Below, in pieces: positions 3,079 to 54,310 of a stretch of 64,000 bases of DNA. The stretch is taken from IMG/VR virus record IMGVR_UViG_3300033149_001159, positions 1 through 64,000 of that record, one strand, 5' to 3'. Below the pieces are notes generated by a model. The model was not told where the DNA came from. It ran no database searches and worked only from the letters and a program-made list of their open reading frames with translations. Each line of letters opens with the position of its first letter. The stretch's first letter is position 1. This DNA is from a virus. The position numbers and the translations under genes are program-made.

Positions 3079-3229
3079 GTGGGAAGAAGTTAGAGACGCT
3101 AGGGGTAAGCTGCTTTTTGAGATTGACGCAGAACGCGGCCTTGTTCGGGTTGTGTCGGGCGGGAAGCGGACCATTGTAGACTTGAAGGACTACGAGAAGG
3201 ACCAGAGTGACAAAGAAACCCATATTTGA
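3065..3229 (+). CDS. small hypothetical protein (54 aa)
   Basis: A 54-residue frame beginning MPKPKWEEVRDARGKLL, with AAGG before the ATG and a 14-base overlap with the previous gene. The sequence looks like a small beta-rich domain. It is the last gene of the left-end cluster; its stop codon overlaps the -35 box of the late promoter. Confidence 0.6.
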   Translation: MPKPKWEEVRDARGKLLFEIDAERGLVRVVSGGKRTIVDLKDYEKDQSDKETHI

Positions 3230-3254
3230 ACTTTGGGCCGTTATCTGCTATACT
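3226..3254 (+). promoter_or_regulatory. late-operon promoter (sigma70-like, extended -10)
   Basis: TTGAAC at 3226-3231, a 17-base spacer and TATACT at 3249-3254, with the extended -10 element TGC directly before it. The same TGCTATACT core occurs in the two rightward promoters at 54.0-54.3 kb. Transcription should start near 3261. Confidence 0.75.
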
Positions 3255-3260
3255 ATAAGA

Positions 3261-3501
3261 GATTACGCCGTTCGTTTCGACGGACGGTCGCGGGCAGGCG
3301 CGGTTGACTTCATGTCACGTTCTGCCCAGCTAAGGTCCTAATGGGTCGGGACTTGCTGTACGCATAAGGCCTATGTAAGCGGAAATGTGAAGGTACAGCC
3401 GCTAAAAGAATAGAAGACCGGCTAGACCGGCATAACGAGCGTCGAGAGAACGCCGAATTTCCACAGAGCGCCACAGAGCGCCGAAGGGATTCGGCGTTTT
3501 T
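3261..3501 (+). ncRNA. structured leader or stand-alone RNA before the late operon
   Basis: About 240 bases lie between the promoter and an intrinsic terminator, with no convincing gene. Several strong helices can be drawn: GGGCAG (3292) with CTGCCC (3322), enclosing TGAC/GTCA; GCTGTAC (3355-3361) with GTACAGC (3393-3399); and CCGG repeats around 3418-3430. A tandem CACAGAGCGCC repeat precedes the terminator. Only about 18 bases separate the terminator from the portal start codon, so this RNA is either a cis-acting leader controlling read-through into the 27-kb structural operon or an independent small RNA. It matches no RNA family I recognise. Confidence 0.55.
3479..3501 (+). terminator. intrinsic terminator upstream of the portal gene
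   Basis: CGCCGAA (3479-3485), loop GGGA, TTCGGCG (3490-3496), then TTTTT. An upstream copy of the left arm, AACGCCGAAT at 3449-3458, is complementary over 10 bases to 3489-3498 and could form a competing helix that absorbs part of the U tract. Confidence 0.8.
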
Positions 3502-3519
3502 GTTGTATTGGAGAACCCT

Positions 3520-21771: not shown

Positions 21772-25880
<4,109 letters not shown>

Positions 25881-30993: not shown

Positions 30994-31047
30994 CAGGAGC
31001 GGGTGAGTTCCGCACCGGACCCCAGTGGGCTCGCCTGCTCCTGCTAG
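30990..31047. terminator. hairpin between convergent operons
   Basis: CTAGCAGGAGC at 30990 pairs perfectly with GCTCCTGCTAG ending at 31047, extended inward by GGGTGAG/CTCGCCT with two G-U pairs, for about 18 bp around a 22-base loop. It spans the stop codons of both convergent genes and should end transcription from both sides, although no long U tract follows. Confidence 0.65.
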
Positions 31048-38202: not shown

Positions 38203-39057
38203 TCAGACGACAACCCTGCATTTCCCCTTGAGTTCCTTCCACACCTTAGGCAGCCTGGTTGTCAAGTAGTCAACTTGCTGCCTATTGTGAGCTATGAGAA
38301 ACGTGCCGTTCTCCTTGCCTACGAGCCTTAGTTCCAGTAGGCGGGGATAGACTTGTGGAACGAACAGTTTGTCGGCCAACTTCTTGAGCAACGCTTGCCA
38401 CTCCGAAAGTAGTTGACCGTCTTGCTGGCGCGCTTCTGCGCGCTTGGTAACATCTTCCGCCACCGGGCTCCTGGCGGGTAGCCTTTCCCCCATCTCTATC
38501 TTGGAACGCAGGAAACCTAACGGCGACCGTATTTTGCCACGCCCTGCTTTCTTCGTATTGTAGTCTTCGATATAGTCCCACCAAGCATAGATGTCTTCAA
38601 TGCCAAGCTCGTTCTCAATGCATTTTGGGGCTAATGTTGCTGCGTTCTGTGAGCTATAGCCGAGTTCTTTAAGCTGTCTCCGTATACCATCACTTCCTGG
38701 TAGTTCTATGACGGTTAATGATGGTTTGTAGGACATTTGGGGTACCTGTTTGTCCTCCCCCTTGGGACATCTAGGGTCCCCAGTTGTCTTGGGGAAGGAC
38801 ATTTTCGGTAGATAGTACAAGTTTGTCCCGTGCGGTCCCTCGTTGACGCCTATCCTGATTTCCCCGCTTTTCTGTAGCTCTGCCAGAAGTCTTGTAACGT
38901 TGCGGCGCGACTGCCGCGTTTTGCGGGCCAGGCGGTCAATGCCAGGCCAACACACGCCTTTGTCATCGGCATGGTCGGCTAGTGCTAGTAATAGCAGTAG
39001 CTTGGTTCCGCTTTGCTTGCTATGTTCCCAGACGTGACTGATGGCCTTGACGCTCAT
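38203..39057 (-). CDS. replication initiator-like protein
   Basis: A 284-residue protein. Residues 1-85 are a winged helix of the kind found in phage and plasmid initiators (ALADHADDKGVCWPGIDRLA, RRNVTRLLAELQKSGEI). The middle is a low-similarity linker. The C-terminal ~65 residues (LSEWQALLKKLADKL, ELRLVGKENGTFLIAHNR) resemble the DnaA N-terminal domain, which contacts helicase. Together this suggests a protein that recognises an origin and recruits host replication proteins. It could bind the 11-bp repeats at 53.8 kb. Confidence 0.65.
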   Translation of the reverse strand: MSVKAISHVWEHSKQSGTKLLLLLALADHADDKGVCWPGIDRLARKTRQSRRNVTRLLAELQKSGEIRIGVNEGPHGTNLYYLPKMSFPKTTGDPRCPKGEDKQVPQMSYKPSLTVIELPGSDGIRRQLKELGYSSQNAATLAPKCIENELGIEDIYAWWDYIEDYNTKKAGRGKIRSPLGFLRSKIEMGERLPARSPVAEDVTKRAEARQQDGQLLSEWQALLKKLADKLFVPQVYPRLLELRLVGKENGTFLIAHNRQQVDYLTTRLPKVWKELKGKCRVVV

Positions 39058-39530
39058 CGTGCACCTTTAACGCTGTTGCAGTGCCGACATAGCGTCTGAA
39101 GGTTGTCAGGGTCTAGGCTTCCCCCACGGCTCTCTGGCTTAATGTGGTCAATCGTCAAATATCGGCGGCTCCCGCAGATCTGGCATGTAAAGTTATCGCG
39201 CTCCCATATAGCCCACCGTAGAGCAGCGGGGATGCTTTGCTTCTTTGGGAGTGGCTCCCACGCCTTCTTTGGCTTGGCGCGCGAGAGGTCTACTCGATAA
39301 GTTGCTGGCGAATGATAACTAGCTGGCTTTGTCTGAATCAGGATGCCCTGCTTCCGCAACCTTGACATCACTCGCTGAATCTGCCGCTTGGAAAGCCCCA
39401 TCTGCCATGCTATGTGTTCGATGTAGGGACGAAAACCGTACCGTTCGTTGCAACCTAGCGCCAGCATTACTCTTTGTTCTGTCCCCCTGAATTCGTAGTC
39501 CCATAGCCTCTCCATCCATTTGACGCTCAC
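39054..39530 (-). CDS. winged-helix and HNH fusion protein
   Basis: The GTG at 39530 follows GGAGG at 8 bases; the open frame further upstream overlaps a structured leader. The 158-residue product has a winged helix (IAWQMGLSKRQIQRVMSRL) and a C-terminal HNH zinc domain (CQICGSRRYLTIDHIKPE, then CRHCNS). The combination suggests a DNA-targeted nicking enzyme or a regulator derived from one. It is translationally coupled to the initiator gene. Confidence 0.75.
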   Translation of the reverse strand: MSVKWMERLWDYEFRGTEQRVMLALGCNERYGFRPYIEHIAWQMGLSKRQIQRVMSRLRKQGILIQTKPASYHSPATYRVDLSRAKPKKAWEPLPKKQSIPAALRWAIWERDNFTCQICGSRRYLTIDHIKPESRGGSLDPDNLQTLCRHCNSVKGAR

Positions 39531-39560
39531 TTTGGTTCCCTCCTGGACCCCTCCAGATGT

Positions 39561-39628
39561 ACAAAAGCCCCAAAGATAGTTGCCGCCCTTAGTTGCTACA
39601 CCGTGGACAGAGTCACTATCTCTGGGGC
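39561..39628 (-). terminator. attenuator-like terminator in the leader of the replication operon
   Basis: In the leftward RNA, GCCCCAGAGATAGT (39628-39615) can pair with ACTATCTTTGGGGC (39580-39567) over 14 bp with a single G-U pair, and is followed by TTTTGT. It lies between the promoter at 39.7 kb and the first start at 39530. An upstream CAGAGTC could pair with GACTCTG inside the loop, giving an alternative fold. Confidence 0.6.
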
Positions 39629-39686
39629 TGTTTGCCAAATTGTTCGGGCATCAAAAAGACTCTGCGCCCCACGATGTAGCACTACC

Positions 39687-39715: not shown

Positions 39716-39912
39716 GTCTCACTTTCCGCGCCTGCCAGGAACTCCATAATGTCGGCTGCTGCACTAGGCACCCACGCAAGTCTTCTAAGTAATACTACGG
39801 CTCGATCTCTCTGCGCCCGCAGTTCCTCGTGGCTGTCCAGCACGCGCATTTCCTGGGCATACTCATAGAGAATACTACGCCGCCAGGCTATGTCTGCTTT
39901 GGAAAGTATCAT
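39712..39912 (-). CDS. small helical protein
   Basis: From the ATG at 39912 the product is 66 residues, helical and charged, ending in ADIMEFLAGAESE, similar in style to the duplicated proteins at 35-37 kb. Its 3' end overlaps the -35 box of the next promoter. Confidence 0.55.
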   Translation of the reverse strand: MILSKADIAWRRSILYEYAQEMRVLDSHEELRAQRDRAVVLLRRLAWVPSAAADIMEFLAGAESET

Positions 39913-40739
39913 TGCTTCTTCTCCCATCTTTCTCTGACAAGTTCAATGGCTTCTTTGCGATTGAGATTCCGCCATTCCATCAGCCGGTTCACGGAGCTCG
40001 AATGGCTAAGGCACAGGCTCTTGCCATTGCACACGGGCTCGTTACAGATAATGCACCTATCGCCGTCGCGGTGATGCAAATTGTAGTCATCCCGCCGCCT
40101 GGTTGCTAATTGCCGCGCCCTGGCGTAATGGCCTTCCGCCCTGCGGCGGGCGGCTTTTCTCCGTTCGGTATCTGCCCGCCACTTTTTGAAGGCTGCTGTC
40201 CATTCCTTTGATTTAGGTTGCCAGCACGGACAAGCACTTTTGGCCTTACATTTCGGGCATTTGGCCCAGTCACCCAGGCAGTTCTTGGGTAGTTCATCTG
40301 CTAAGCAGCAGTCTGGGCAATAGATATTTACTCCTGGGCACGGGGGAAGTGTTGCGTGCTTCCTGGGCTTGACAGCGCAACGCTCGCTGTTGCGCCGCCC
40401 CGTTAGCCCAAGGGTTTTGAACAAGTCATACATGCTGGATGTACTGGCCCACCCCTGGCGTTCAGCTACTTGGTGAATGTTGTAGACCCATTTACCACTC
40501 TCGTCTTTCAGCAGGTAGTCGCGGTAAGCGGCTCGGATATTGCGTTCGTCGGGTGCCTGCCCCCGACGTTCCGTGAGATTTAGTCTATCAAAGTGCTTGT
40601 ACAAGCGCGATGACCGTTGCCACCCCTGGCGCTCGCACACTTCAGCCACGGTATATGCCCACTCGCCGTCAACCCGCAGCCAGTAGTCAGCCCATGCAGC
40701 CCGAATGCGGGATTCCGGTGTCTTGACTCCGCGCGTCAC
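39909..40739 (-). CDS. protein with two tandem DNA-binding-like repeats and zinc sites
   Basis: A 276-residue protein from a GTG in a GTGA overlap. Two ~50-residue repeats (about 10-60 and 66-117) share AAxxDYxL, a VAExCERQGW/VAERQGW turn and a SRLYKHFDRLNLT/SSMYDLFKTLGLT helix. They are followed by cysteine pairs (CPDCC, CPKC, CPCW) and a last CIICNEPVCNG finger with flanking histidines. This looks like a sequence-specific DNA-binding protein or HNH relative. A dimeric or two-domain reader would suit a palindromic site, but no link is shown. Confidence 0.55.
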   Translation of the reverse strand: MTRGVKTPESRIRAAWADYWLRVDGEWAYTVAEVCERQGWQRSSRLYKHFDRLNLTERRGQAPDERNIRAAYRDYLLKDESGKWVYNIHQVAERQGWASTSSMYDLFKTLGLTGRRNSERCAVKPRKHATLPPCPGVNIYCPDCCLADELPKNCLGDWAKCPKCKAKSACPCWQPKSKEWTAAFKKWRADTERRKAARRRAEGHYARARQLATRRRDDYNLHHRDGDRCIICNEPVCNGKSLCLSHSSSVNRLMEWRNLNRKEAIELVRERWEKKQ

Positions 40740-44612: not shown

Positions 44613-44680
44613 GGTGGTTGGTGGGAGTTGAACCCACAGCGCTTAGCGTCACAGGCCAGCGCGAGCCGCTCTCAACCACC
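44613..44680 (-). tRNA. tRNA-His-like gene (GTG), reduced D arm
   Basis: On the minus strand GTGGTTG pairs with CAACCAC over 7 bp, with an extra G at -1 opposite C73, the hallmark of tRNA-His. The T arm is perfect (GTGGG-TTCAACT-CCCAC) and the anticodon loop reads CTGTGAC, giving anticodon GTG on a stem with one mismatch and one G-U. The D arm is only about 10 bases (GCG/CGC possible) and lacks the usual GG pair. CCA is not encoded. It may be a functional minimal tRNA or a tRNA-like relic. The 103 bases to its left (44510-44612) show only two short hairpins. Confidence 0.65.
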
Positions 44681-53241: not shown

Positions 53242-53445
53242 CTAGACGGGACGTCCAGGCAGGTATGCTCCCCAGCCAAGTTCTCGTGCCAGGCTGGCCA
53301 GTTCATTGCGTATCACCTGCGAATAATGGGTAGGTACCCACGGGATAATACTGTCGTGATACGCAATGCGTGCTAACAGCGCTTCCCGGATTCTGTTCAC
53401 GCTCGTGACCTCTACGGGCGGGGATAGGCGCTCACAAAGTGTCAT
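53242..53445 (-). CDS. hypothetical protein (67 aa)
   Basis: AAAGGAGACAG precedes the ATG. The helical product has no recognised motif; it is the second gene of the leftward operon. Confidence 0.55.
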   Translation of the reverse strand: MTLCERLSPPVEVTSVNRIREALLARIAYHDSIIPWVPTHYSQVIRNELASLARELGWGAYLPGRPV

Positions 53446-53717
53446 TGTACTGTCTCCTTTGCTGTGATCGCATCTTCGACTACTGCAATCGCAAACCGTA
53501 TTGTGTTGAGTTCTCCACTGATGTACGCTCGCTTGGCCTTGTCCTTCGATAGTCTGTTATACTTCTGTTCCATCTCTAGTCGCTGTCTGTGCTCGTCCAG
53601 CGTATTGCGAATTGCATCAACGAGCCTTCTCTCGCCAAACACCGCCGTGACTAGTTCTGCTTTTTGTGCTGCTGTACATTGCTGTTGCTGGCCTTTCAGT
53701 ACTTGCTCCAGTTTCAT
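53442..53717 (-). CDS. hypothetical helical protein, first leftward gene
   Basis: A 91-residue helical protein, GGGAGG before the ATG. As the first gene leftward of the divergent region it is likely expressed early. A possible -10 (TGCTATGCT, 53766-53758 on the minus strand) lies about 40 bases upstream, but its -35 is poor. Confidence 0.55.
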   Translation of the reverse strand: MKLEQVLKGQQQQCTAAQKAELVTAVFGERRLVDAIRNTLDEHRQRLEMEQKYNRLSKDKAKRAYISGELNTIRFAIAVVEDAITAKETVQ

Positions 53718-54065
53718 TCTACGCCTCCCACTTGTGATAGTGCTCGCGCACGCCTACAGCATAGCACGCCCAGCGTAAAGGGAGCGTAAAGGTAGCGTAA
53801 AGGCGGCGTAAAACTTGCGTAAATATCGTATGAAGACATTATGAAGACATTATGAAGAAACACACCTTCGCACTATGCCCATTATGGCAACACGGGGATC
53901 TGAAGAGACCGGACCGGAGACCAGAGACCGGAGACCAGACCAGGACCAGGACCAGGGCAGGAGCGGAGCAGGCCAGCGGAATAGGGGGGGGACTTGTCAT
54001 AACGGGTGTCAAGCGCTGACGCAATCTACGCCTACTTTTTCCCCTTACTGGTTACTTCGTATGTC
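53718..54065. other. divergent intergenic region, likely origin / control region
   Basis: About 350 bases without a convincing gene separate leftward from rightward transcription. It holds two 11-bp repeat arrays (53773-53862), then an ACC/GGA-rich block of short repeats (about 53905-53975, GACCGGA and GAGACCA variants) with strong strand asymmetry, then a G8 run. This layout fits a replication origin with initiator sites; no experiment supports it yet. Confidence 0.55.
53773..53862 (+). repeat. two arrays of helically phased 11-bp direct repeats
   Basis: GCGTAAA occurs at 53773, 53784, 53795, 53806 and 53817, exactly 11 bases apart. ATGAAG follows at 53830, 53841 and 53852, again 11 bases apart, with ACATT completing the first two units. 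Iterons of about one helical turn are typical of initiator or regulator binding arrays. Confidence 0.85.
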
Positions 54066-54094
54066 TTGACAAGTGGCTTGTTCTTTGCTATACT
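54066..54094 (+). promoter_or_regulatory. rightward early promoter 1
   Basis: TTGACA at 54066, 17-base spacer ending TGC, TATACT at 54089-54094. Start expected near 54101, 16 bases before the ATG at 54117. Same TGCTATACTGTG core as promoter 2. Confidence 0.85.
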
Positions 54095-54281: not shown

Positions 54282-54310
54282 TTGACAAATTGGTCTGTGC
54301 CTGCTATACT
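54282..54310 (+). promoter_or_regulatory. rightward early promoter 2
   Basis: TTGACA at 54282, 17-base spacer ending TGC, TATACT at 54305-54310. The ATG at 54315 lies at or just before the expected start of transcription, so the first product would come from a leaderless RNA or the promoter serves later genes. Confidence 0.85.

Follow-up and report, generated by a model that had tools for sequence, protein, structure and literature searches.

The gene-free region at 53.8 kb of this phage genome contains a continuous array of eight 11-bp direct repeats that abuts a predicted leftward promoter (PL), while a second repeat cluster, built on an unrelated word, lies within the gene for an O-like replication initiator. 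We have moderate confidence in a joint reading of these two elements, in which the array serves PL as a tandem operator and replication probably starts inside the initiator gene. The array itself is probably not a replication origin at 53.8 kb.

The window analysed here (the whole stretch of 64,000 nucleotides) is part of a 68,738-bp, siphovirus-like virus record. Both ends of the record share a 114-bp repeat, which suggests that it is complete. Leftward genes occupying 31-53.7 kb encode the O-like initiator (38203), HNH proteins, methyltransferases, a Sak4-like ATPase and a RusA-like resolvase, and the rightward genes comprise small genes together with those for the large terminase, the portal and the tape measure. 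Searches of the phage genome for a tyrosine or serine recombinase, for ParB_N and for a DnaB helicase found none. The best relative of the terminase in the phage collection is 37% identical, and no genome sharing the array region emerged from a DNA search in phages, from IMG/VR queries with the terminase, AAA and methyltransferase proteins, or from 80 relatives of the AAA protein.

Other features of the window were recorded along the way. Directly upstream of the initiator gene, 39054-39638 (-) encodes an HNH endonuclease fused to a winged-helix domain resembling that of O-like initiators. A 780-aa open frame (23538-25880, +) contains collagen-like repeats of 18, 27 and 36 bases, and a weak Rfam tRNA match at 44613-44679 (-) scored 30.4 bits (cut-off 29), with none reported there by ARAGORN. 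Upstream of the portal gene, the gene-free stretch 3225-3503 (+) has a promoter-like TTGAAC-17-TATACT, ~240 nt with better folding than shuffled sequences (z -3.3) and a hairpin that resembles a terminator, with a run of T; together these mark a candidate small RNA.

A phased repeat array at a predicted leftward promoter

The initial annotation had described five GCGTAAA and three ATGAAG words, each set spaced by exactly 11 bases, and both sets were recovered: GCGTAAA at 53773, 53784, 53795, 53806 and 53817 (span 53773-53823) and ATGAAG at 53830, 53841 and 53852 (span 53830-53857). The two words belong to a single continuous array of eight 11-bp units covering 53772-53859. Read as 11-mers from 53772, units 1-4 are AGCGTAAAGGG, AGCGTAAAGGT, AGCGTAAAGGC and GGCGTAAAACT, followed by TGCGTAAATAT, CGTATGAAGAC, ATTATGAAGAC and ATTATGAAGAA as units 5-8; in every one of the eight, position 5 is T and positions 7-8 are AA. 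Identity at a lag of 11 bases reaches 0.77 in the array, against a genome mean of 0.25 (sd 0.05), and the next-best value outside the collagen-like repeats (23.3-26 kb) is 0.455. Across the 68.7-kb genome, the array words are the only exact 7-mers with at least three equally spaced copies at 8-39 bases; a scan permitting variable spacing gave output dominated by coding repeats.

The surroundings of the array likewise agree with most of what had been described. The region is gene-free, bounded by the leftward gene start at 53717 on one side and by rightward promoters at 54066 and 54282 on the other, and the reported 'ACC/GGA-rich block' corresponds to an 80-base run devoid of T, the next longest such run being 46 bases. 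The label 'divergence of early transcription' is wrong in one detail: on the rightward side lie the genes for the large terminase and the structural proteins, so that this side is not simply 'early'. Coordinates are collected in Table 1.

Table 1. Positions of the features discussed, in window coordinates
Feature	Position	Strand	Remarks
O-like replication initiator	38203..39057	-	N-terminal HTH_36 domain
Easily melted 50 bp next to the in-gene cluster	38683..38732	.	top 0.67% of genome for low stability
Origin candidate: six core-GGACA sites in initiator gene	38731..38840	.	38731+, 38741-, 38765+, 38775-, 38797+, 38814-
First leftward gene	53442..53717	-	91 aa, start at 53717
PL, predicted leftward promoter, TGCTATGCTGTA	53755..53766	-	extended -10, without recognisable -35; inverted pair I1
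Five units, core GCGTAAA (leftward strand: TTTACGC)	53772..53826	+	proposed tandem operator, about -22 to -72 of PL
Three units, core (T/G)TATGAAGA	53827..53859	+	continuous with first five; low-stability part of array
80-nt T-free GACC/GGA low-complexity block	53902..53981	+	between leftward and rightward promoters
PR1, predicted promoter	54066..54094	+	near-consensus TTGACA-17-TATACT
PR2, predicted promoter	54282..54310	+	near-consensus TTGACA-17-TATACT

Three predicted promoters surround the array. The -10 of PL lies at about 53758-53763, and its TGCTATGCTGTA matches the same pattern as a 12-mer found in both PR1 and PR2, TGCTATACTGTG. Exact matches to TGCTATRCTGTR occur in the window only at PL, PR1 and PR2. 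Allowing at most one mismatch, six matches were found where 1.04 were expected, and 0/100 shuffles reached six; because the pattern was written after the three sites had been seen, these counts indicate that the sites are alike and rare rather than providing an independent discovery. On the leftward strand a full sigma-70 site was not found at PL, nor was any leftward site matching at least 10 of 12 positions present between 53.8 kb and 46816. The array starts at the place where the -35 of the predicted PL would be expected, with the five GCGTAAA units at approximately -22 to -72 (positions counted along the sequence from an inferred transcription start point). No other promoter of the phage has arrayed GCGTAAA.

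The array abuts a predicted leftward promoter that lacks a -35, an arrangement that an operator explains without extra assumptions, and the position and periodicity of the array make a candidate operator the most likely reading. We propose that a putative phage- or host-encoded protein would bind to adjacent 11-bp units along the same helical face, and that this binding, cooperative and head-to-tail, would control PL; the ATGAAG units would then represent a divergent extension of the GCGTAAA array. The -35 region falls within the units closest to PL, so that a bound protein could either replace the -35 contact (activation) or block polymerase (repression), with the missing -35 making activation slightly more likely.

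Spacing of direct repeats by one helical turn is the hallmark of head-to-tail binding; by analogy, GCGTAAA-N4 at a -35-less promoter would fit such a mode. In phage 186, the Apl protein recognises seven sites, spaced by 10-11 bp, in the interval separating the early promoters and a further five at attP; its binding is cooperative and repressive and requires about three adjacent sites (PMC7498355). The likeness, which concerns repeat number, spacing and promoter position, is between these five to seven direct repeats at major early promoters (pR-pL) and attP and the five plus three units at 11 bp found here upstream of a leftward promoter. However, in phage 186 the promoters face each other and Apl doubles as an excisionase, whereas here the promoters diverge and no integrase or Apl-like protein was found. 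PhoP, of the OmpR/PhoB family, recognises 7-bp direct repeats with a 4-bp spacer, and three or four motifs in a row are bound more tightly (PMC4832192). The array matches this architecture of motif, spacer and direct orientation, but its word is unmatched to known boxes, and since the phage has no Trans_reg_C protein a binder of the OmpR/PhoB type would have to be a host regulator.

Family searches of the phage for a putative array binder covered HTH_17, OmpR-type Trans_reg_C, MerR_1 and RHH_1, and all four were negative; one ArsR/HTH_20-like protein is encoded. Separately, the protein encoded at 39909-40739 (-) contains two tandem repeats of ~55 residues that appear HTH-like by eye, making it a possible binder of tandem repeats, and it matched no family or solved structure.

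Beyond this phage, GCGTAAA arrays were detected in nine IMG/VR stretches, compared with two for the reversed word, and 38 were found in GTDB genomes. Their contexts are mixed and several are plain tandem duplications, so they offer a weak lead, and a literature search for the word returned nothing relevant. In Bacteroidales genomes, mostly from rumen, the loci L133, L145, L146, L151, L157, L160, L163 and L167 have in common 11-bp arrays of the GCGTAAACAAT type, whose flanks fall into two kinds.

A repeat cluster inside the initiator gene

The protein at 38203 had been called initiator-like, and profile searches bear this out (HTH_36, E 1.2e-10; PHROG replication initiation, E 2e-17). Just after the codons for the DNA-binding domain, its gene contains six GGACA half-sites that alternate in orientation and form imperfect palindromes. 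When imperfect-repeat clusters were sought without bias on both strands, 38730-38840 came first outside the collagen-like repeats, a rank tied with two low-complexity places. Synonymous codon shuffles matched the cluster in 1/100 and 0/100 cases under two settings; a simpler count of a single 5-mer was weaker (46/1000 shuffles). An easily melted stretch adjoins the cluster (Table 1). By comparison, the 53.8-kb array has no GGACA-type site, the closest being a 10/13 match nearby at 54052.

We infer from this arrangement that GGACA is the word recognised by the initiator, that the initiator binds the cluster, and that replication probably starts at 38.68-38.84 kb, inside its own gene. The lambda origin provides a precedent, with sites inside gene O, in inverted orientation and next to an A+T-rich stretch (PMC5043065). 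The 38.7-kb cluster shares the in-gene location and the adjacent A+T-rich stretch, and its alternating half-sites, as imperfect palindromes, may correspond to the inverted orientation; the sequence and spacing of its sites differ. The 53.8-kb array does not have this layout.

Homologues of the initiator carry counterparts of the cluster. The relative closest in its DNA-binding domain, represented by L205 and L254 from one contig, encodes an initiator that shows 58% identity to the 38203 protein over the first 83 residues, and the gene for this initiator has repeats of AAAAGAGGACAC/T at the place matching the cluster of the window. GGACA is the top 5-mer common to both linkers, with 5 and 6 copies, and 0/500 paired synonymous shuffles did as well, a figure that is somewhat favourable because the linker stretches were chosen after the clusters had been seen.

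The analysis was extended to 30 loci with homologues, which yielded 21 non-redundant genes and, with that of the window, a set of 22. These genes are related and do not represent 22 independent cases, but in 20 of the 22 the densest repeat cluster starts at gene bases 186-365. For 15/22, at most 2/25 synonymous shuffles reached the observed number; in the other seven, mostly GC-rich or low-complexity, the clusters were not above shuffles. By this measure L254 has its densest cluster elsewhere, in low-complexity sequence at 578. The repeated words vary by initiator subgroup (GGTGACA, GCGCACC, ATGCCGC and others), and none of the homologues' loci has a GCGTAAA array. Judged from these gene sequences, in-gene repeat clusters are general in the O-like initiator family.

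Alternative readings of the array

The initial annotation had advanced the array as an origin candidate. If it were the main origin, the O-like protein or another initiator would act on the GCGTAAA iterons and the ATGAAG 11-mers would serve as the unwinding element. Several features do look origin-like: the direct repeats are phased, only one 50-bp stretch in the genome is less stable than the one at 53809-53858, and the predicted curvature falls within the top 0.5% of the genome and is not diagnostic. Moreover, an initiator is present and a DnaB helicase was not found, so that an origin opening for the host machinery should be needed. However, low stability and curvature also fit a promoter region. 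The suggested check by cumulative GC skew over the whole record places the minimum at the array (53771) and the maximum at 31007, but both coincide with switches in gene orientation, and because the skew switches exactly where the genes do, it does not test for an origin. On a circle, an origin at 53.8 kb would have its antipode near 19.5 kb, but skew of the + strand is positive up to 31 kb. No DnaA box was found in or near the array region, which lies 15 kb from the initiator gene, and the repeats lack the inferred initiator word. Furthermore, lambda O binds inverted repeats as dimers rather than 11-bp direct units, and the repeat clusters of the initiator family are found inside their own genes. 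With the sites of the initiator most likely in its own gene, we consider it unlikely that the array is the main origin.

It is rather unlikely, too, that the array serves as a second origin, either late or fork-arresting, of the oriR kind seen in SPP1. In that phage oriL is part of the initiator gene, oriR occupies non-coding DNA ~13 kb away, and gp38 binds both (PMC6316719). The layouts are alike, each combining an in-gene cluster with a non-coding repeat array 13-15 kb away (15 kb here), but whereas one protein serves both SPP1 origins, the two clusters here have unrelated words (GGACA and GCGTAAA). Two initiation sites used by two proteins, namely a lambda-like in-gene origin and a phased direct-repeat origin doubling as divergent-promoter control, would couple replication with a transcription switch; such an arrangement seems quite unlikely. 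An arm-type integrase or excisionase site (attP) would agree with the GCGTAAA 11-bp arrays that adjoin tyrosine integrase genes in three of the loci retrieved (L006, L009 and L159), and recombination directionality factors bind such repeats (PMC7498355). However, the apparently complete 68.7-kb record has no tyrosine or serine recombinase, making this very unlikely. The parC site of plasmid R1 consists of tandem 11-bp repeats at a promoter, and the array resembles it in period and promoter position, but a ParR/parC-like partition centromere is most improbable here given that there is no ParB_N or RHH_1 match and that the leftward proteins have no adjacent ParM-sized or ParM-like gene. The attP and partition readings were both rejected because recombinase and par genes were not found.

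Implications for the phage and its initiator family

In summary, the preferred reading places the likely origin of this phage in the initiator gene and not at the 53.8-kb array. Because the repeat sites of the O-like initiator family lie just downstream of the codons for the DNA-binding domain, the gene sequence alone can indicate both the origin and the word that the initiator recognises, providing a test usable on other genomes. The array, in turn, would be a compact system in which to study how a protein binds cooperatively and head-to-tail at a promoter that lacks a -35.
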